The notes under the pieces: generated by a model
Seen by the model: the letters and a program-made list of their open reading frames with translations, nothing else
Told to the model about the DNA's origin: nothing
Database searches by the model: none
DNA from: Rhodospirillaceae bacterium
GTDB lineage: Bacteria; Pseudomonadota; Alphaproteobacteria; SHVP01
Length of the DNA: 64,000 bases
NCBI GenBank assembly: GCA_002722055.1
Contig: PBKD01000014.1
Span: forward strand, 266,533 to 330,532
Direction: 5' to 3'
Program-made: the position numbers and the translations under genes
Part shown: positions 12,067 to 52,016 of the stretch, in pieces
Position numbering within the stretch: position 1 is the stretch's first letter
How the letters are laid out: the number at the start of each line of letters is the position of its first letter

Positions 12067-13248
12067 ATGAATTTTAAAATTATACCTCACTTTATTTTTA
12101 AAAGTCTTTTTTTATTTATATTTTTATTATTTTTACAAAACTCTTTTGCTAATGAAGTATCTAAGAATGCACTAGAAAAATTAAAAGAAGTTGAAAAAGC
12201 AATTGAACAAAACAAAGTACGAGGGAAAGAACTAACTAAAGTTAAATCTGAATTAAATAAAGATATTACTAAGCTGAGAGAAACTTTGCTTAAAACATCA
12301 ATTAATGTTATGAATCAAGAACAAGTAGTAGATACCATTTCTGATAAAATAAGAATTTATAGTTCTGAGGAAAAAACTATTAGAAATAACCTAAATGATA
12401 AAAAAATAGATATAGATAAAATACTAATCACATTGCAAAGAATACAAAGATTTCAATTAAATAAATTACAGATAAGTGAAGATAAAATATTTAAGGATAT
12501 AAATACTTCACATTTACTATCTGCTATTCTCCCTCAAATTACTGATATTTCTAACAATCTTAAATCAGAATTAACGGCACTAAATCAGCTAAAAAAAGAA
12601 ATATATAAAGAACAACAAAACTTAAATTCTGCAAAAAAATTAATGAGTAGAGAAAAAATCGCTTTAAATAGGCTTATTGATAGAAAATCTGAATTAAGAG
12701 GAAAGCTTATTATTGAAACTAAGGAGAATAAAGAAAAAATAAAAAAATTGGCTCAAAATGCTCAAAGTCTTAAAATTCTGATAAAAAAACTTAGCTCTAA
12801 TAATAAATCACTATTAAAGAGAAGTTCTAAATTAAATAAACTAGATAATAATAGTTTTCCTTCATCTAAAGGGAAATTACCACTACCAGTAAAAGGTATT
12901 ATAAAAACCACATATGGTGAAAAAAATAGATTAGGAACTAGATCAAAAGGTTTAACTGTTGAAACTATTACTAAAGCAAGTGTAATAAGCCCACATGAAG
13001 GTGAAATAGTCTTTGCTGGACCATTTAGAAATTATGGTAACCTCTTGATTATTTCATATGGAAGCGGATATCATATTTTATTTTCTGGGTTAGACTCTAT
13101 AAATGGTTATGTAGGAAAATGGATTATGGCTGGCGAGCCAATTGGAAGAATGGGCAACAATTCTAAAGATTTTAAACCAGAGTTATATATTGAATTGAGA
13201 AAAAATGGCGAACCGGTAGATCCAAATAAATGGATAGTCATAAATTAA
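12067..13248 (+). CDS. EnvC-like murein hydrolase activator (degenerate M23/LytM domain)
   Basis: The N-terminus has a hydrophobic signal segment (residues about 7-28, ending FANEVS). Residues about 30-255 are strongly charged and heptad-like, a long coiled coil. The C-terminal 115 residues are a LytM/M23 fold (PLPVKGIIKTTYGE; GYHILFSGL; PELYIELRKNGEPVDP). The zinc-binding His/Asp set of active M23 peptidases is not visible, as in EnvC, which activates amidases during septal splitting rather than cutting murein itself. It is periplasmic by signal peptide and overlaps the next gene region upstream of ctpA. Confidence 0.82.
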   Translation: MNFKIIPHFIFKSLFLFIFLLFLQNSFANEVSKNALEKLKEVEKAIEQNKVRGKELTKVKSELNKDITKLRETLLKTSINVMNQEQVVDTISDKIRIYSSEEKTIRNNLNDKKIDIDKILITLQRIQRFQLNKLQISEDKIFKDINTSHLLSAILPQITDISNNLKSELTALNQLKKEIYKEQQNLNSAKKLMSREKIALNRLIDRKSELRGKLIIETKENKEKIKKLAQNAQSLKILIKKLSSNNKSLLKRSSKLNKLDNNSFPSSKGKLPLPVKGIIKTTYGEKNRLGTRSKGLTVETITKASVISPHEGEIVFAGPFRNYGNLLIISYGSGYHILFSGLDSINGYVGKWIMAGEPIGRMGNNSKDFKPELYIELRKNGEPVDPNKWIVIN

Positions 13249-13265
13249 ATGAAGGTAAGAGGATA

Positions 13266-14525
13266 ATGAAATATTTAATAAAGTATGCTTTTTTAATCGT
13301 ATTATTTAGTATCCAAGTAAATATAGCAGCTCAAGCAACTGAACTAGAAAAAACATATAAACAGCTGGATTTTTTTGGAAAAGTTTTTGATAAAGTGAAG
13401 AAAAACTACGTCGATGAAGTATCTGACGAAAAGCTAATGGAAGCAGCTATTAACGGAATGCTGCAGTCACTTGATCCACACTCCGGATATTTAAATGAAA
13501 AAAATTTTAAAGAAATGCAAATCCAAACAAGAGGCCAGTTTGGTGGTCTAGGTATCGAAGTAACAATGGAAAAAGGTTTTGTTAAAGTAATAGCGCCAAT
13601 TGAAGATACTCCTGCATTTAAAGCAGGGTTAAAAACTAATGATCTTATAACACATATTGATGGTAAACCTGTGCAAGGTTTATCATTATCTCAAGCTGTT
13701 GAAAAAATGAGAGGCCCAGTTAATAGTAAAATTATTTTGACTATTTCAAGAACTGAAGAAAAAAAATCTTTTGATGTTGAGATTATTAGAAAAGTTATCA
13801 AAATTGCTTCAGTAAAAGGAAGAATAGAAGGTAAAACAATCTATATCAGGATTTCTTCATTTAGTGAACAAACTTTTTCGGGGTTAAAAAAGGAAGTAAA
13901 AAAACTAAATGCAGAACTTAATAAAGAATCTAACGGGGTTATATTAGATCTAAGGGGAAACCCTGGAGGACTTTTAAGTCAAGCTATAAAGGTTAGTGAT
14001 GCATTTCTTGATAAAGGAGAAATAGTCTCAACACGTGGAAGAAAAAAAAATGACTCACAAAGATATAATGCAAGGAAGGGCGATATAATTACTGGGTTAC
14101 CAATGATTGTTTTAATAAATAGTGGATCTGCATCTGCCTCAGAAATAGTTGCAGGAGCCTTACAAGATCATGGCCGGGCTGTAATAATGGGCACAAAATC
14201 ATTTGGAAAAGGATCAGTTCAAACAATAATGCCAATATCAGGTTTTGGAGCGTTGCGACTTACTACATCTCTGTATTATACACCTTCTGGTATATCCATC
14301 CAAGCAAAGGGAATAACTCCTGATATTACAGTAGAACAAGTAAGGCTTAATACTGAAGACAGTTCTAAGTTTAGAAGCGAAGCAAATTTAAGGAATCATA
14401 TTGAAGCTGATAAAAAGGGTGATAAACAAAAAAGTCAGGATAACCTAGATATAATGAAAGATTATCAATTATCACGAGCTTTAGATATGTTAAAGGGGAT
14501 AAAAATATTTAAAAAAGCAAATTAA
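13266..14525 (+). CDS. ctpA: carboxyl-terminal processing peptidase, S41 family
   Basis: This is a periplasmic serine protease that trims or degrades exported proteins from their C-termini. From the ATG at 13266 it has 419 residues: a signal peptide (MKYLIKYAFLIVLFSIQ, cleaved near residue 20), a PDZ domain at about 85-165, and the S41 core. The catalytic serine is about S290 in SGSASASE and the lysine about K315 in SFGKGSVQ. An upstream in-frame ATG at 13230 lies inside the previous gene and would bury the signal peptide. AAGGTAAGAGG just before 13266 supports the later start. Confidence 0.92.
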   Translation: MKYLIKYAFLIVLFSIQVNIAAQATELEKTYKQLDFFGKVFDKVKKNYVDEVSDEKLMEAAINGMLQSLDPHSGYLNEKNFKEMQIQTRGQFGGLGIEVTMEKGFVKVIAPIEDTPAFKAGLKTNDLITHIDGKPVQGLSLSQAVEKMRGPVNSKIILTISRTEEKKSFDVEIIRKVIKIASVKGRIEGKTIYIRISSFSEQTFSGLKKEVKKLNAELNKESNGVILDLRGNPGGLLSQAIKVSDAFLDKGEIVSTRGRKKNDSQRYNARKGDIITGLPMIVLINSGSASASEIVAGALQDHGRAVIMGTKSFGKGSVQTIMPISGFGALRLTTSLYYTPSGISIQAKGITPDITVEQVRLNTEDSSKFRSEANLRNHIEADKKGDKQKSQDNLDIMKDYQLSRALDMLKGIKIFKKAN

Positions 14526-17608: not shown

Positions 17609-19045
<1,437 letters not shown>

Positions 19046-44578: not shown

Positions 44579-45139
44579 TTAATCATTTTTTTTATATTTA
44601 TTAACCACCGAGAGTTGAAATAAAGAAAAAATTATTGTGATAGGCATAATTGCAAAAACCTTGAAGTTTACCCACATATCTGTACTCACAGTCCGCCAAA
44701 CTATTTCATTCAAAATAGCCAGAAAAATAAAAAAAGATCCCCATCTATAGGTTAGAATCTTCCACCCAGCATCTTGAAGATTAAAAGCACCTTGAAATAC
44801 AATTTTAAGGAAAAGTTTTTTAAAAGCCAGACCAGTAAATAATGCAAACGCAAACAGAAGATTTACAATAGTAGGTTTAATTTTGATAAATAATGCATCA
44901 TTTAATAGAAGAGTTAAGCCCCCAAATATCAGAACAACAAAAGCAGTAACTAATGCAAGAATTGGGATTTTTCTCTCAATCAAATAAGAGCAACAAACTG
45001 ATATTACAATTGCAACCATAAATACACTTGTTGCAGTAAAAATACCCCATCTAGAATTTGCAATAAAGAATAAAGCTAAAGGGCCAATTTCAATAGCTAA
45101 TTTTACTAATTGATTTGGTAAAGTTTTTTGTTCATTCAT
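44579..45139 (-). CDS. yciB: inner membrane-spanning protein YciB / septation protein A family
   Basis: This 186-residue polytopic protein (about five to six helices) belongs to the YciB/IspA family, linked to cell division and envelope integrity. Family patterns visible are IEIGPLALFFIAN at about 16-28, LTLLLNDALFIKIKPTIVNLLFA, and GWKILTYRWGSFFIFLAILNEIVWR. It is the last gene of dapF-mtaB-ftsY-yciB, its ATG overlapping the ftsY stop by 4 bases. It is convergent with the NUDIX gene, 5 bases apart. Confidence 0.93.
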   Translation of the reverse strand: MNEQKTLPNQLVKLAIEIGPLALFFIANSRWGIFTATSVFMVAIVISVCCSYLIERKIPILALVTAFVVLIFGGLTLLLNDALFIKIKPTIVNLLFAFALFTGLAFKKLFLKIVFQGAFNLQDAGWKILTYRWGSFFIFLAILNEIVWRTVSTDMWVNFKVFAIMPITIIFSLFQLSVVNKYKKND

Positions 45140-46047
45140 AATAAACCTAATAATGCTCGAGAATAACTCTCCGGTTCAAATTCTTGCAAATCATCAATAC
45201 CCTCACCAACGCCAATCGCATGAATAGGAATCGGATACCTCTCAGCTATAGAGACCAATACACCCCCTTTTGCTGTACCATCTAATTTAGTCATAATCAA
45301 GCCAGTTACTCCACAACTTTTATTAAATAATTCAACCTGGCTAATTGCATTTTGTCCTGTTGAAGCATCTAATACTAATAAAACCGAGTGAGGGCTTGTT
45401 TCATCAATCTTCTTTAATACTCTTGGTATTTTTTCTAGTTGATTCATTAGATCAGTTTTATTCTGTAATCGTCCAGCAGTATCAATTATTAATATATCTT
45501 TTTTTTCTTCTTTTGCAGTGACTAATGCTTCATAAGATAAAGCAGCAGCATCTGTTCCAGTAGGTTTTGTGATTATTTCAGACTTAGATCTATCGCTCCA
45601 AATTTTCAATTGGTCAATAGCTGCTGCTCTAAAAGTATCTCCAGCAGCAATTAAAACATTTTTATTTTTTTTTACAAAATTATTTGCTAACTTACCTATT
45701 GTAGTTGTTTTGCCAACACCATTAACTCCAACGACAAGAATAACATAAGGATCTCCATTATTCTCTGTATTTAAAGGTAAATACCGTAACTTTAAAATTT
45801 CGCTGACTTTTTTTGATAAGAACTCTCTTACTTTATTGGTGTCAAAATCGTTGAATTTTTCTTTAGATATCGAATCTACTATCTTCTTGGATATGCTTAC
45901 ACCAAAATCAGACGATATTAATAAATCCTCAAGATCCTCTAGGGTTTGAGGGTCTAATTTTTTTCCTTTAAACACTGTACTAAGGTTTTTACTTAAACCT
46001 GATGCAGTTTTATTAAGACCATTATTAAGTTTAGATACCCATTCCAT
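45136..46047 (-). CDS. ftsY: signal recognition particle receptor FtsY
   Basis: FtsY docks SRP-ribosome complexes at the membrane. The 303-residue protein consists of N and G domains with almost no acidic A domain, as in many alphaproteobacteria. Motifs are the P-loop GVNGVGKTT at 107-115, GDTFRAAA, DTAGRLQNK and TKLDGTAKGG. The partner ffh lies divergently 2.3 kb away. It overlaps yciB by 4 bases and follows mtaB by 6. Confidence 0.96.
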   Translation of the reverse strand: MEWVSKLNNGLNKTASGLSKNLSTVFKGKKLDPQTLEDLEDLLISSDFGVSISKKIVDSISKEKFNDFDTNKVREFLSKKVSEILKLRYLPLNTENNGDPYVILVVGVNGVGKTTTIGKLANNFVKKNKNVLIAAGDTFRAAAIDQLKIWSDRSKSEIITKPTGTDAAALSYEALVTAKEEKKDILIIDTAGRLQNKTDLMNQLEKIPRVLKKIDETSPHSVLLVLDASTGQNAISQVELFNKSCGVTGLIMTKLDGTAKGGVLVSIAERYPIPIHAIGVGEGIDDLQEFEPESYSRALLGLL

Positions 46048-46053
46048 ATTATG

Positions 46054-47322
46054 CTACTTGGTTTTTTCCAATATCCCATTTAGTTTAAGTTGATCGGATG
46101 AAATTATTTTAAAATTGTGTATGGTGCCAGTTTCTAAATTAGAATTAAACTTAACGGGTATAAAACCCTCTGTATAACCTGCATTATCATCTTCAACAAG
46201 CACTTTTACTTTTTTGCCAACTAATGAATTAAAAAGCTTTTCTTTAGCAAAATTGCCAAAAAGCCTTAGAATTTTTGCTCTTTTTTTCCTTACATTCAAT
46301 TCAATTTGAGGATATTTACTGGCATCTGTTCCCTCTCTAATAGAGTATGGAAAAACGTGTAAAAAGGTAAGCCCACACTCTTCAATAAGATCAAGCGTAT
46401 TTTCAAACATTTCTTCATCTTCAAAGGGGAAACCGGCAATTAAATCAGCACCAAAAACTAAGTCAGATCTATCTCTCTTCAATTCTTTGCAAAGATTTAT
46501 TATATCTTTACGCCTATGACGTCTTCTCATTTTTTTTAATATATTATCGTCTCCCGACTGAGCACTAAAATGAATGTAGGGCATTAATCTCTTTTCATTT
46601 ATAATTAAATTAAAAAGTTCATTATCTATTTCCTTCGGGTCAATTGAAGAAAGCCTAAGACGAGATAAGTTTGGGACTCCACTTAAAATATATTTAATAA
46701 GCTTACTAAGAGTTATTTTATTTTTTAAATCTTTACCATAGTCTCCAATATCAACCCCAGTAAGAACAACTTCCTTGAATCCTTCTTTAACTAATAACAC
46801 AATATTTTCTACTATATCCAAAGGATCAATACTTCTTGAATTACCTCTAGCAAAAGGGATAATACAGAATGAGCACCTATGGTTACATCCATTTTGTATT
46901 TCTAAGAAAACTCTCGCTCTATTATTAAAAGCATGAAGCATGTGGCTAGTATTTTCCTGAACTTTCATAATATCATCTACTTGATAAGAAGATTTATTTT
47001 CATGAAAAATATTTTTCTTAAGTTTATCTTTATTACCAACAACACCAGATACTTCAGGCATATCAAACCAAGATTTTGGATTAATTTGAGCCGAACAACC
47101 TGTAACAATTATTCTAGATGTAGGCTGTTCTTTTTTGTATCTCCTAACGGCTTGCCTAGCTTGTCTTTCAGCTTCACTAGTTACAGCACAGGTATTAAAA
47201 ACTAAAGTATTAGTATCAACATTATTATTATTTTTAATTACTTCAGATTCAAAAGTATTAAGCCTACAACCAAAGGTCACAATATTTAGCTTATCATTTC
47301 TCACATTTTTATTTTTAATCAT
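46054..47322 (-). CDS. mtaB: tRNA t6A methylthiotransferase (MtaB)
   Basis: This radical-SAM enzyme adds a methylthio group to t6A37 of tRNA. The UPF0004 domain carries cluster cysteines C19 (GCRLNTFESE), C45 and C76. The radical-SAM CxxxCxxC is C146, C150, C153 (NGCNHRCSFCIIP). A TRAM-like domain ends the 422-residue protein. The GCRLN form of the first motif points to MtaB rather than MiaB (GCQMN) or RimO (GCPKN). It overlaps dapF by 8 bases. Confidence 0.92.
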   Translation of the reverse strand: MIKNKNVRNDKLNIVTFGCRLNTFESEVIKNNNNVDTNTLVFNTCAVTSEAERQARQAVRRYKKEQPTSRIIVTGCSAQINPKSWFDMPEVSGVVGNKDKLKKNIFHENKSSYQVDDIMKVQENTSHMLHAFNNRARVFLEIQNGCNHRCSFCIIPFARGNSRSIDPLDIVENIVLLVKEGFKEVVLTGVDIGDYGKDLKNKITLSKLIKYILSGVPNLSRLRLSSIDPKEIDNELFNLIINEKRLMPYIHFSAQSGDDNILKKMRRRHRRKDIINLCKELKRDRSDLVFGADLIAGFPFEDEEMFENTLDLIEECGLTFLHVFPYSIREGTDASKYPQIELNVRKKRAKILRLFGNFAKEKLFNSLVGKKVKVLVEDDNAGYTEGFIPVKFNSNLETGTIHNFKIISSDQLKLNGILEKTK

Positions 47323-48145
47323 TAATCAACTTTCCTGAAAAGGAATACTCTGCTGGACCAGTCATAAAAATTTGTTCATTTTTATCAACATATATATTCA
47401 ATTTACCACCAGGAAGGTTTACCTCAACATTTTTGTCACAATATTTTCTATAAATAGCCGCTACAACAGTTGCACATGCTCCTGTCCCACAAGCTAAAGT
47501 AATTCCAGATCCCCTCTCCCATACCCTTAATTTTATTGAAGATTTAGATTGCACATAGGCTAGATTAAAATTAATTTTCTTAGGAAATAATGGGTAATTT
47601 TCAACTACTGGACCTAGGTTTTCTAAATCAATTCTATAGGGGTCATCAACAAAATAAACGATGTGGGGATTGCCAACATTTAATACTACAGGGTTAGATA
47701 TTATATTTCCTAAATTATCTTCAAAACTTAAATCTAAATTTAGAGGATCAAGTGGTTTCAATATAGGAATCTTATCCCACTTAAATTCTGGAATTCCCAT
47801 ACAAATTGAAACAGTTCCATGTAATTGTATATCACAATACAATATTTTATTTTCAGAAAATAACTGTATTTTTGATTTACTTATTCTATCCGCTAGGTAT
47901 TTAGCAACACACCTTGCTCCGTTGCCACATGCTTCTGACTTAGTGCCATCAGAATTGAACACCACCATCTCTGCATCAGCAATATCAGATTTTCTAATTA
48001 GTAAAACTTGGTCACAACCAATACCTTTTCTTCTCTCGGATAGTTTAAGAATTAAATCTTTATCTAACGACAAATTATCTTCAATGGCATCAATAATGAT
48101 AAAATCGTTGCCCAAACCATGCATCTTAGTAAAATTAATTCCCAT
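47315..48145 (-). CDS. dapF: diaminopimelate epimerase
   Basis: DapF converts LL- to meso-diaminopimelate for lysine and peptidoglycan. The 276-residue two-lobed protein has the catalytic cysteines C73 (EACGNGARC) and C219 (LACGTGACAT). The N-terminus FTKMHGLGNDFIIID is canonical. It is first in the dapF-mtaB-ftsY-yciB operon and divergent from ffh across 201 bases that hold the ffh leader. Confidence 0.97.
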   Translation of the reverse strand: MGINFTKMHGLGNDFIIIDAIEDNLSLDKDLILKLSERRKGIGCDQVLLIRKSDIADAEMVVFNSDGTKSEACGNGARCVAKYLADRISKSKIQLFSENKILYCDIQLHGTVSICMGIPEFKWDKIPILKPLDPLNLDLSFEDNLGNIISNPVVLNVGNPHIVYFVDDPYRIDLENLGPVVENYPLFPKKINFNLAYVQSKSSIKLRVWERGSGITLACGTGACATVVAAIYRKYCDKNVEVNLPGGKLNIYVDKNEQIFMTGPAEYSFSGKLIND

Positions 48146-48200: not shown

Positions 48201-48229
48201 TTGACTAAAAGCTGATAGCAAATTAATCT
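48201..48229 (+). promoter_or_regulatory. candidate promoter of the ffh-rpsP operon
   Basis: TTGACT at 48201-48206 and TAATCT at 48224-48229 are 17 bases apart. The expected start site is near 48236, giving a leader of about 110 bases that includes the hairpin at 48282-48310. The -10 is weak. Confidence 0.35.
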
Positions 48230-48281
48230 AATAACATAATCAAAAGTATAACTAAATACCGCTTTTTATATAAATAGCGAA

Positions 48282-48317
48282 CACTAGTCCACGAGTTTCG
48301 TGCACTGGTGGTTTTTT
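48282..48317 (+). terminator. terminator-like hairpin in the ffh leader (possible attenuator)
   Basis: CACTAGTCCACG (48282-48293) can pair with CGTGCACTGGTG (48299-48310) across a 5-base AGTTT loop. That gives 11 pairs with one C-C mismatch and one G-T wobble. A G and six T residues follow (48311-48317), the form of an intrinsic terminator. It lies about 30 bases before the ffh ATG on the sense strand and after the candidate promoter. It is either an attenuator or the end of a short leader RNA. Confidence 0.6.
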
Positions 48318-48346
48318 GTTTGAATATTTATGAGGAAAAAACTTAG

Positions 48347-49720
48347 ATGTTTCAAGGGTTACAAGATAAATTTGGTGAAATTTTAGGCAACTTAAAAAAA
48401 AGAGGATCTTTAAAAGAGTCAGACGTTAAAGAAGCTCTTCGGCAAGTAAGAATTGCTCTCTTAGAGGCTGATGTAGCATTACCTGTAGTAAAAAAACTTA
48501 TTAAAGACATAGAAACAAAGGCTATTGGCCAAGAAATATTACGAAGTATATCCCCAGCTCAGATGGTCATTAAGATTGTAAATGATCATATGATTGAGGT
48601 CTTAGGAACCAAATCAGAGGATATCAATCTTAAAACGAGCCCCCCTGCAATTATATTAGTAGCTGGACTTCAAGGTTCAGGCAAAACAACTACAGTTATT
48701 AAACTTGCTCATAAGATTAAGAGTAAAATGAATAAAAAAGTCTTAGTCGCATCTTTAGATGTTTACAGACCTGCTGCTCAACAACAACTAAAAATCCTTG
48801 GAGAACAAGCAGATATTTCTTCTTTACCAATAATTGATGGCCAACTTCCCCTAGATATTGCAAAAAGAAGTATTAAGGCAGGAGCCCTACAAGGAACCGA
48901 TGTCATCATTCTTGATACAGCTGGGAGAATGAATGTTGATGAAGCGTTAATGACAGAGCTCTCTCAAATTCATGCTACTGTTAAACCAATTGAAACATTG
49001 TTAGTTGCTGATTCCTTAACAGGTCAAGATGCAGTTAATATTGCAAAAGCTTTCAAGGAGAGAATAAATATTACTGGTATAGCATTGACAAGGATAGATG
49101 GTGATGCCAGGGGGGGTGCTGCAATAAGTATGAAGTCTGTAACAGGATGTCCAATAAAAGTTCTTGGTACAGGAGAAAAAATAGATGACTTAGAAAATTT
49201 TCATCCAGATAGAATTGTATCGAGAATTCTTGGAATGGGTGATGTTGTTAGTTTAGTTGAGAAAGCTAAAGAGACTATTGATGAAGAAGACGCGCAAAAA
49301 TTAGAGAAAAAAATTCTTAAAGGTCAATTTGATCTCAATGATCTTCGTGATCAACTCCGACAGATGAAAAAAATGGGTGGAATGAGTGGGTTGATGACAA
49401 TGCTTCCAGGGATATCTAAAGTTAAAAAACAGATGTCACAATCTAATATAGATGAAAAAATGTTACTTCATCAAGAGGCTATTATTAATTCAATGACTCC
49501 TAAAGAAAGGATTCATGTGAAAGTATTGAATGCCTCTAGAAAGAGAAGAATTGCTGCTGGTGCTGGAGTTGAGATACAAGATGTCAACAGAGTTCTCAAG
49601 CAATATAAACAAATGAGTTTAGTTATGAAGAAAATGAAAAAAATGGGGAAGAAAGGAAAAAATATCAACCCTGAAGCAATAAATAATTTGATACCAAATC
49701 AAAATTTTTTTAAACATTAA
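48347..49720 (+). CDS. ffh: signal recognition particle protein Ffh
   Basis: Ffh binds 4.5S RNA and signal peptides to target membrane proteins co-translationally. The 457-residue protein has N and G domains with P-loop GLQGSGKTT at 107-115, DTAGRMNVD and TRIDGDARGG, and a methionine-rich M domain from about 320 (RQMKKMGGMSGLMTMLPG; SLVMKKMKKMGKKGK). AGGAAAAA precedes the ATG. It heads the ffh-rpsP-rimM-trmD-rplS run. No 4.5S RNA gene was recognised in this window. Confidence 0.97.
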   Translation: MFQGLQDKFGEILGNLKKRGSLKESDVKEALRQVRIALLEADVALPVVKKLIKDIETKAIGQEILRSISPAQMVIKIVNDHMIEVLGTKSEDINLKTSPPAIILVAGLQGSGKTTTVIKLAHKIKSKMNKKVLVASLDVYRPAAQQQLKILGEQADISSLPIIDGQLPLDIAKRSIKAGALQGTDVIILDTAGRMNVDEALMTELSQIHATVKPIETLLVADSLTGQDAVNIAKAFKERINITGIALTRIDGDARGGAAISMKSVTGCPIKVLGTGEKIDDLENFHPDRIVSRILGMGDVVSLVEKAKETIDEEDAQKLEKKILKGQFDLNDLRDQLRQMKKMGGMSGLMTMLPGISKVKKQMSQSNIDEKMLLHQEAIINSMTPKERIHVKVLNASRKRRIAAGAGVEIQDVNRVLKQYKQMSLVMKKMKKMGKKGKNINPEAINNLIPNQNFFKH

Positions 49721-49741: not shown

Positions 49742-50245
49742 TTGTCTATTAAAATACGATTATCAAGAGGTGGAACAAAAAAGCGGCCTCACTATAGAGT
49801 TGTTGTAGCCGATACACGTAGCCCAAGAGATGGGCGATTCATCGAACGTTTAGGTACCTATAACCCACTTTTACCCAAAGATGACCCAAAACGGGTAACT
49901 CTAAATGCTGACAGGATTAAACATTGGATTGGAATGGGAGCTAAACCAACAGATAGAGTTTCTAAATTCCTTGGAATGGCAGATATAACTGAAATGCCAA
50001 AGCAAAAAAATAACCCTATTAAAGCTAAGCCAAAGGCAAAGGCTCAAGAGAGAGCAGCAAAATTAGCAGAAGCTAATAAAAAAGATGCGCCTCCTGTAGA
50101 AGAAAATCCCGATATAGAAAATAATAAAGCTGAAACAAAACCTGAAGAGGATACTAAACAAGAGAACCAATCTTCTGATGAAAAAGAAATAAATAAAAAA
50201 GAACAGAAGAATGATGAAACTGAAGTTGTAGCCAAGGATAAATAA
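49742..50245 (+). CDS. rpsP: 30S ribosomal protein S16 with long charged tail
   Basis: Residues 1-85 are a standard S16 ([34 protein letters not shown]). The protein continues to 167 residues, roughly twice the bacterial norm, with a tail that is first Lys/Ala-rich and then Glu/Asp/Asn/Lys-rich, presumably disordered. The start is TTG with AAGGA about 8 bases upstream. It lies 21 bases after ffh. Tails on S16 occur in other alphaproteobacteria; their role is unknown. Confidence 0.95.
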
Positions 50246-50303: not shown

Positions 50304-50804
50304 GTGGTTGAGAACTTAATATATATCGCAAAGATTATATCAACCCATGGAATTAAAGGTGAGTTTAAAATTTTCACATTCCTAGATAAGCCAACATCGA
50401 TTGTTAATTATAAAAAACTATTTGATGAAAATGGTGATGAAATTAATGCTATTAATAAAGCCAGGATACATAAGAAGAATATAGTCATTGGTAGTATTTT
50501 AAATATTTCAACTAAAGCTAGCGCCGCAAACCTTTTAGGAAGAAAAATTTATATTAGTAAAGAAGAATTAAATAAAACAAAAGAAAACGAATATTATTAT
50601 AATGAATTAATTAAGCTAAAAGTAGAAGATGAAGACGGAAATTTTATAGGAGAAATCATTAATGTTTACAACTTTGGGGCTGGTAATGTTATTGAAATAA
50701 AAAAACATTCTAACTCTGAAACATTTATGCTTCCATTTGATAAGTCGTTTTTTCCCAAAGTAATTTTAGGAGAAAAAATAATTGTTTCTCTTCCAATAGT
50801 TTAA
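50304..50804 (+). CDS. rimM: 16S rRNA processing protein RimM
   Basis: RimM helps mature the 30S head and binds S19. The 166-residue protein has the N-terminal RimM barrel (IAKIISTHGIKGEFKIF; LGRKIYIS) and a C-terminal PRC-barrel (GEIINVYNFGAGNVIEI; MLPFDKSFFPKV). The start is GTG at 50304. It lies between rpsP and trmD as usual. Confidence 0.94.
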   Translation: MVENLIYIAKIISTHGIKGEFKIFTFLDKPTSIVNYKKLFDENGDEINAINKARIHKKNIVIGSILNISTKASAANLLGRKIYISKEELNKTKENEYYYNELIKLKVEDEDGNFIGEIINVYNFGAGNVIEIKKHSNSETFMLPFDKSFFPKVILGEKIIVSLPIV

Positions 50805-50821: not shown

Positions 50822-51565
50822 ATGAATAATGAAAATTATGAGAATAAACTGACTAGGATTGAGTTTAATATACTCACTCTTTTTCCCGAACTTTTTCCTG
50901 GCTCTGCAGGCATATCTATATTAGGAAAGGCTCTTGAAAATGGTTTATGGAAATTAAACACAGTAAATATAAGGCAGTTTTCTCAAAATAAATACTGCTC
51001 AGTTGATGATCCTCCTTTTGGAGGAGGACCAGGCTTGATAATGAGACCAGACATTCTTGGGCGAGCACTAGATCACGTAAACTCTAGTATAAATGATGAT
51101 AAAAATCATAGAACCTTGTGCTTATCACCAAAAGGAAAAAGATTTCATCAAAATATTGCAAAAGATTTGTTAAATTCGGATGTAATCACTATTATATGTG
51201 GTCGGTATGAGGGCATTGATGAAAGGTTTGTATCTACAAGGAATATAGAAGAGATAAGTCTTGGAGATTTCATAACCTCTGGAGGAGAGCAAGCTGCATT
51301 AGTAATTATTGATGCTATAGTAAGACTAATCCCAGGAGTTTTAGGAAGAAAAGAAAGCTTAGAAAAAGAAAGTTTTGAAGAAAATTTGTTAGAGTACCCT
51401 CAGTATACTAGACCGGAGATATGGGAGGGAAAAAAAGTTCCTTCAATATTATTATCTGGGAATCATAAAGAAATAAAAAATTGGAGATTAAAAGAATCAG
51501 AAAGTATAACAAAATTACGAAGACCAGATTTATGGCAAGAATATATCGCACAAAAAAAGGTTTAG
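50822..51565 (+). CDS. trmD: tRNA (guanine37-N1)-methyltransferase
   Basis: TrmD makes m1G37, which prevents frameshifting. The 247-residue SPOUT enzyme shows [12 protein letters not shown] at the N-terminus, the active-site [34 protein letters not shown] in the deep trefoil knot, and [16 protein letters not shown]. The ATG at 50822 gives a short N-terminal extension of about 15 residues, and no better start is visible. rplS follows 4 bases after the stop. Confidence 0.97.
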
Positions 51566-51569
51566 AAAA

Positions 51570-52016
51570 ATGAATACCATAGAAGAAATTGAAAAAGAAA
51601 ATATAGAGAACTTAACAAAAGAAAAAGAAATACCTGATTTTAACCCAGGAGATACTGTTAAAGTCCAAGTAAAAGTTGTTGAAGGACAACGTGAACGACT
51701 TCAGGCATTTGAAGGGGTTTGTATTGCTAAAAAAAATAGAGGCATAAACTCATCCTTTACAATAAGAAAGATTTCCTACGGGGAAGGTGTAGAAAGGGTT
51801 TTTCCTCTATACTCTCCTAAGAACGCTTCTATAGAGGTTATTAGAAAAGGTTCAGTAAGAAGATCAAAACTTTACTACCTGAGAGGAAGGACAGGGAAAA
51901 AAGCTAGAATAGCTGAAAAAATTGATAATACTAAAAATAAAAAATTACAAAGTAATTCTTCTAATAAAGGAATTTCAACTGAAAATACTAAGGAAAAAGA
52001 TTCAAAAAATGACTGA
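51570..52016 (+). CDS. rplS: 50S ribosomal protein L19
   Basis: L19 lies at the subunit interface. The core (residues about 1-115) contains [26 protein letters not shown] and [22 protein letters not shown], then the [18 protein letters not shown] block. A tail of about 30 polar residues brings the length to 148, a little over normal. The last 8 bases overlap the leuC start, linking translation machinery to leucine synthesis in one transcript. Confidence 0.96.

Follow-up and report, generated by a model that had tools for sequence, protein, structure and literature searches.

The leader upstream of ffh in an alphaproteobacterial genome probably acts in cis on an (ffh-)rpsP-rimM-trmD-rplS operon of which the rpsP operon is the lasting client and ffh a passenger, through pausing or termination controlled by an operon product, with S16 as the first candidate and L19 as the second. 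The leader, a small hairpin (P1), a main hairpin (P2) and a 3' tail, was analyzed within a 64,000-nt stretch of genomic DNA (the window). It has a covarying RNA structure and a conserved tail, and it precedes and stays with a ribosomal protein operon. A preliminary description had proposed attenuation of the ffh-rpsP transcript by a terminator-like hairpin in the leader. A conserved cis leader is indeed present, the terminator idea survives in part (the T tract is genus-wide, while 43 of 137 class copies have three or fewer T's after the stem), and a purely local attenuator is contradicted, as the hairpin is a copy of the class-wide alphaproteobacterial ffh motif by the model comparisons given below.

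Transcription would start near 48236, after a candidate sigma-70-type promoter (TTGACT, 17 nt, TAATCT; 48201 to 48229, plus strand) whose boxes and spacing are, by eye, identical in both same-genus genomes (loci L003 and L032). P1 (48260 to 48279, plus strand) folds as 4 + 3 pairs around a U·U with an AUAU loop, and 2 nt separate it from P2 (48282 to 48310, plus strand). P2, supported by sequence, folding, covariance model R2 and covariation, reads CACTAGT-C-CACGA-GTT-TCGTG-C-ACTGGTG and forms 7 outer and 5 inner pairs, 12 in all with one G·U, under a GUU loop. Its single mismatch sets a C at 48289 opposite a C at 48303, and this C·C is what stays constant in the family among 137 copies. The 3' tail (48311 to 48324, plus strand) comprises one G, six T's at 48312 to 48317, TT at +10/+11 (48320 to 48321), and then G, and a Shine-Dalgarno-like GAGG of ffh stands at 48332 to 48335 on the same strand. 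The fold of the 146-nt leader had a z score of −2.21, with 3 of 200 shuffles equally good. The stem ends 36 nt and the T tract 29 nt before the ffh ATG at 48347, as the earlier placement of the hairpin on the sense strand about 30 bases before the ATG had it; the stem and its six-T tract are likewise real, but the 11 pairs first counted are 12 around the C·C mismatch.

The window thus has, as an intrinsic terminator would, a stable stem with a U tract after it. P2 was not listed by a simple terminator scan of the window, presumably owing to the mismatch. Our own hairpin scan, covering both strands of the 64 kb (−8 kcal/mol or lower, at least 5 T's in the next 8 bases), found 97 T-tailed hairpins, with P2 third by energy (−15.3 kcal/mol). 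P2 alone among the 25 best of the 97 has a tail starting with six T's; several others have five, and the initial impression of DNA with almost no other intrinsic terminators is therefore only roughly right. The strongest T-tailed hairpin of the window lies on the minus strand, with its tail starting at 18212 (−17.2 kcal/mol).

All genes of the putative transcript are on the plus strand, with ffh, encoding the signal recognition particle (SRP) GTPase, first (48347 to 49720), followed by rpsP, encoding ribosomal protein S16 and proposed as the lasting client (49742 to 50245); rimM (50304 to 50804); trmD (50822 to 51565); and rplS, encoding L19, the second candidate ligand (51570 to 52016). All five are open reading frames, and the last three were named from their sequences. 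The divergent neighbor dapF (47315 to 48145, minus strand) is also the neighbor in four genomes of family f49, discussed below. A gene recognized from its sequence as ftsY (SRP receptor) lies at 45136 to 46047 on the minus strand, about 2.3 kb from ffh and on the opposite strand; a MiaB/MtaB-like gene and dapF separate the two. The window Ffh is 90% identical to that of MarineAlpha2_Bin1, its nearest named relative; in the part of a paper on mitochondrial SRP that was available, mitochondrial Ffh adjoins "MarineAlpha2" Ffh in one tree (PMC8321541).

Judged by covariance models, the window hairpin is a diverged homologue of the alphaproteobacterial ffh motif that falls below the formal cut-off of Rfam family RF01793. 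Rfam at gathering scores returned nothing at the leader, and RF01793 aligned to the window over its full 52 positions at 19.4 bits (cut-off, 35; E = 0.17), which by itself is not significant. The window shares two features of RF01793, a hairpin with two C's in its internal loop and a place ahead of ffh in the same orientation. R2, a covariance model built from 39 other alphaproteobacterial leaders that include no sequence of the window's genus and no locus lacking ffh, matched positions 48277 to 48329 at 47.8 bits (E = 1.7e−11 in 98 kb, under a rough model calibration). Homology follows because leaders that pass RF01793 (G018, G047, and G050) belong to the R2 training set, and R2 matches the window. 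A simple pattern search also found the hairpin core upstream of ffh in 23 of the 29 ffh loci returned from relatives. Elsewhere in the window, RF02800 (Rickettsia sRNA47) scored above its cut-off at 14098 to 14236 on the minus strand, antisense within a carboxy-terminal-peptidase-like open reading frame (13230 to 14525, plus strand); this match probably reflects coding conservation.

RF01793 is taken here to be the ffh motif of Meyer et al. (2009) on the basis of name and structure. In the available portions of that paper, the motif is one bulged hairpin before ffh with two C's in nearly all examples and always a C-G at the stem base, offered as a possible control of the SRP protein gene ffh (PMC2704228). 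Its range there is Rhodobacterales, Sphingomonadales, Rhizobiales, and Pelagibacter, and it is reported missing from sequenced Rhodospirillales and Caulobacterales (PMC2704228); a copy is present in our data in a metagenome-assembled genome labeled Rhodospirillales (L042). The mismatched hairpin, the two C's, and the genomic context are common to that motif and the present family, in which the stem base is C-G in 130 of 137 copies. What the present family adds is the upstream hairpin P1, a fixed 3' tail extending to +14, a "bulge" reduced to one constant mismatch, and rpsP as the putative lasting client, including a link to rpsP in genomes without detectable SRP. A full-text literature search returned no text linking the ffh motif with rpsP in the portions of articles that it covered.

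A second covariance model, R1, was built from 41 sequences and used at a threshold of E ≤ 0.01 with strict filters on. It matched at least 253 of 385 genomes of the class, mostly once per genome; the count is a lower bound, as G012 passes RF01793 yet is missed by R1. RF01793 itself exceeded its cut-off in 13 of 60, a different sample from the 385. In the window's own genome, blastn found no second copy and R1 gave 1 match only. Two R1 matches each occurred in G016, G058, G147, G178, G247, G332, G353, G359, and G361; the second was weak in G058, G178, G247, and G361 (E = 0.0018 to 0.0092), strong but at a contig edge in G016 (contig C63), and one of two strong copies on two contigs in G359. In a sample of the phylum, 74 of 299 genomes matched R1, of which 67, the window's own included, belong to the class. 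The 7 matches outside the class were weak (E = 4.2e−4 to 0.00986), and four of them fall in one genus (G444, G547, G592, and G607; E = 6.5e−4 to 0.0022), where the hairpin may be either an unrelated conserved element or a distant relative. A plasmid collection searched with the leader gave no match, and no viral contigs with Ffh were found.

Conservation was measured in 137 nonredundant copies, obtained from 248 ffh loci by excluding 10 in which the motif was absent or unsure (L054, L079, L063, L013, L015, L024, L029, L048, L030, and L073) and by removing copies with more than 80% similarity to a preceding copy. Of the 137, 132 have C·C as the mismatch and the other 5 have U·C, and the pair next to the mismatch is free (C-G in 81 copies, A·C in 32, G·U in 11, G-C in 5, U-A in 4, U·U in 3, and A·A in 1). 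The apical letters, GUC.GCGA and UCGC.CAC on the two sides, are nearly constant across these copies, and the outer stem covaries. The preliminary description had pointed to covariation among relatives as a check of the stem, and P2 passed: with 41 leaders aligned by MAFFT, both partners vary in 9 of 12 pairs, a level that 0 of 500 shuffles reached. G-U cells outnumber A-C cells (54 versus 6 of 1,507), which argues for an RNA of the sense strand, with the qualification that this count and the pair percentages are biased toward the motif because the finder behind the 137 copies gave credit for base pairs, G-U among them, and for core letters. The MAFFT-based counts do not depend on this finder, but a core pattern served to locate their rows.

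P1 is, on the evidence of covariation, a real hairpin at least in SAR11. Across the 137 copies the signal was modest, with 39% of windows at the P1 position folding at p ≤ 0.05 compared to 12% of control windows. When 29 SAR11 leaders were aligned with one from another genome (29 distinct rows), both partners varied in 5 of 6 P1 pairs, and 99.4% of P1 cells were paired; of five overall measures, four lay above all shuffles, and the number of pair types lay below them. Because P1 covaries, two hairpins would describe the motif better than one.

The T tract varies among copies. The 8 bases after the stem hold between 0 and 7 T's, with three or fewer in 43 of 137 copies; in 40 of 137, no T run within the first 10 bases exceeds two, and a long T tract is lacking in most of the aligned SAR11 copies. 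T is enriched at +3 to +6 across the class, but the class-wide conservation of a U tract characteristic of intrinsic terminators was not found. The information peak falls instead at +10 and +11, where T occurs in 96% and 95% of the 137 copies (1.75 and 1.71 bits), and information is at background beyond +14. Even among the 43 copies with three or fewer T's, T is kept at +10 in 39 and at +11 in 42. The constant part of the element, as judged from the aligned copies, is thus the C·C, the TT at +10/+11, and, where tested, P1, rather than the U tract. Because six to seven T's follow the stem in the window and in both same-genus genomes, termination is possible in that genus. A U|G step lies 11/12 or 12/13 nt past the stem in 120 of 137 copies, putting the hairpin base 11 to 12 nt upstream of U|G, which we take to be the geometry of a hairpin-stabilized pause of the E. 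coli his type. A role for the tail as a Shine-Dalgarno sequence or promoter box was rejected, as the distance from stem to start codon ranges from 17 to 231 nt while the tail stays constant.

Which gene the motif serves was read from its downstream neighbors. Among the 150 R1 places listed, 92 adjoin ffh, 1 does not, and 57 come with no listed ffh; 140 of the 150, the window's own not among them, were read, together with part of the R1 matches outside this list. At these places in 191 genomes besides the window, ffh comes first in 183, rpsP comes first in 7, and 1 is unclassified at a contig end, in a reading that considered only ffh and rpsP within 700 nt, so that small genes may lie between. 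One of the 183 ffh-first genomes has a second copy at a contig end. In total, either ffh or rpsP lies no more than 700 nt past the motif in 190 of the 191. Of 130 nonredundant ffh-first loci long enough to show rpsP, 127 have it next, the exceptions being G182, G031, and G237; rpsP lies behind an insertion in G182, G277, and G031. Contig C222 of G237 (L153/L317) carries the motif and ffh up to codon 138, followed by unrelated sequence with, by eye, dnaA-dnaN-recF-like open reading frames, a break that may be either a misassembly or a broken ffh. No genome among the loci read has the motif before ffh yet demonstrably not upstream of rpsP. In the available text of one report, an RF01793 match occupies a plasmid intergenic region of Mesorhizobium huakuii, perhaps away from the operon (PMC5596092).

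The seven rpsP-first genomes span four families: G057, G181, G276, and G352 in f49, G076 in f68, G097 in f89, and G288 in f157. R2 matched both same-genus loci and all seven of these loci (E = 3.2e−12 to 4.7e−5 for the seven), the weakest being the degenerate copy of G076, which has lost one outer pair; in G288 the motif lies 281 to 299 nt from rpsP. Gene order in f49 is dapF, motif, rpsP, which is the order of the window minus ffh. In the f49 genomes and G076 (0.9 to 1.4 Mb, 93 to 100% complete), no SRP54 GTPase scored above the Pfam cut-off, while 14 of 14 control genomes were positive; G076 gave one sub-cut-off SRP54 match (19.3 bits versus 22.7). These five genomes likewise gave no Ffh match at E ≤ 0.01, no FtsY, and no 4.5S RNA at E ≤ 1, the last with an imperfectly sensitive model that matched 13 of 14 controls and placed 9 of 14 above its cut-off. 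The whole SRP has apparently been lost in f49 and G076. The loci from these genomes are L277, L287, L291, L292, L300, L322, and L323. In G097 and G288, ffh is on another contig, and R2 found no motif around it; G097 alone is informative, as the G288 contig begins inside ffh.

The two f49 genera differ on both sides of two P2 pairs (CATCC/GGGTG versus CGTTC/GAACG), which suggests that the P2 stem may still be selected now that ffh is gone, provided that the genera lost ffh in common. The sampling of rpsP-first genomes was not random: five of the seven came from 23 genomes added as small or ffh-less, G276 and G288 alone came from the unselected part, and 7 of 191 is accordingly no rate. In a tree of RpsP, TrmD, and RplS from 31 loci, the rpsP-first cases fall in three places at node support of 35 to 80, and independent origins are not claimed. 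Because the motif survives loss of ffh and SRP and stays with rpsP when ffh is elsewhere, it is best explained as a leader of the rpsP-rimM-trmD-rplS operon.

A plausible working of such a leader can be outlined. Nascent P2 would form when RNA polymerase is 11 to 12 nt past the hairpin base, at the U|G step. An operon product, S16 or failing that L19, would bind P2 in its nearly invariant apical half, around the C·C, and prolong the pause; where a U tract follows P2, as in the window's lineage, transcription would then end near 48317. Excess ribosomal protein would in this way lower expression of the operon. Control by one of their own products is common among ribosomal operons. This generality, the S16 leader proposed for Flavobacteria in the accessible part of one study (PMC7247131), and the statement in the accessible part of a 2024 review that there is no information on control of trmD operon expression (PMC10931766) are the grounds for ranking S16 first and L19 second; by position, S16 is indistinguishable from L19, RimM, and TrmD. 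The fullest form of the proposal, that the name "ffh motif" is a misnomer for a class-wide S16 (or L19) leader acting through a ligand-stabilized pause 11 to 12 nt after the C·C hairpin, is put forward tentatively, as possible rather than probable.

Three other readings account for parts of these data. A fixed intrinsic-terminator attenuator at 48312 to 48317, fixing the expression of ffh and the genes after it with no sensor involved, would fit the strong stem and six T's of the window, the six to seven T's of its genus, and the class-wide enrichment of T at +3 to +6. It is unlikely, however, given the many copies with T runs of two or less, the SAR11 copies mostly without a long tract, and conservation that continues to +14 with its peak at +10/+11; a simple terminator also needs neither an invariant mismatch nor a constant apical sequence. 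Linkage in cis to ffh or rpsP in all but one of the 191 genomes, and a P1 whose structure is kept while its sequence is free, unlike a seed region, make it quite unlikely that the leader gives rise to a short, stable RNA that acts in trans on other transcripts. That reading does draw on Rfam, which types RF01793 as an sRNA gene; on small transcripts in metatranscriptomes cited in the accessible text of Meyer et al. (PMC2704228); and, again from sources available in part, on an "ffH leader RNA" reported in Bartonella, the predicted Sinorhizobium sm5 between dapF and ffh, and the RF01793 match on the Mesorhizobium plasmid (PMC5596092).

The element could also be specific to SRP, with Ffh, alone or with 4.5S RNA, binding the hairpin in autorepression, a possibility raised by Meyer et al. 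Ffh binds RNA, and ffh lies directly downstream in 183 of 191 genomes, so that control of ffh at those loci is possible. Against this, the motif stands before rpsP in the five genomes without detected Ffh, FtsY, and 4.5S RNA and was not found around the G097 ffh on its other contig, and Meyer et al., in the portions available, saw no resemblance to the 4.5S site (PMC2704228); we regard this reading as very improbable. The occurrence of the motif before rpsP in genomes without detectable SRP moves the hypothesis from SRP to ribosome synthesis. If the fullest form of the proposal is correct, the element couples the level of a ribosomal protein to transcription of the operon, including ffh where present, and would be the first known control element of the trmD operon in Proteobacteria, kept in lineages without SRP. 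The occurrence before rpsP also leaves few candidate proteins to test against a short RNA, and the constant mismatch and fixed distance to TT define point mutations with clear predictions.

The proposed working has counterparts in well-known systems. The E. coli S10 operon is controlled by L4 through attenuation, and that system resembles the present proposal in combining a hairpin with a pause near a U-rich stretch of the leader that is prolonged by an operon product; no kinship of sequence or structure is claimed. A his-type pause is similar in having a hairpin about 11 nt upstream of U|G, and differs in that ordinary pause hairpins do not need a sequence constraint within the hairpin such as the one seen here across the class. 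The S16 leader proposed in Flavobacteria, as described in the accessible part of that study (PMC7247131) and likened here by position, belongs to another phylum and differs from the present leader, where ffh usually intervenes; both are structured RNAs before rpsP-rimM, each in one lineage.
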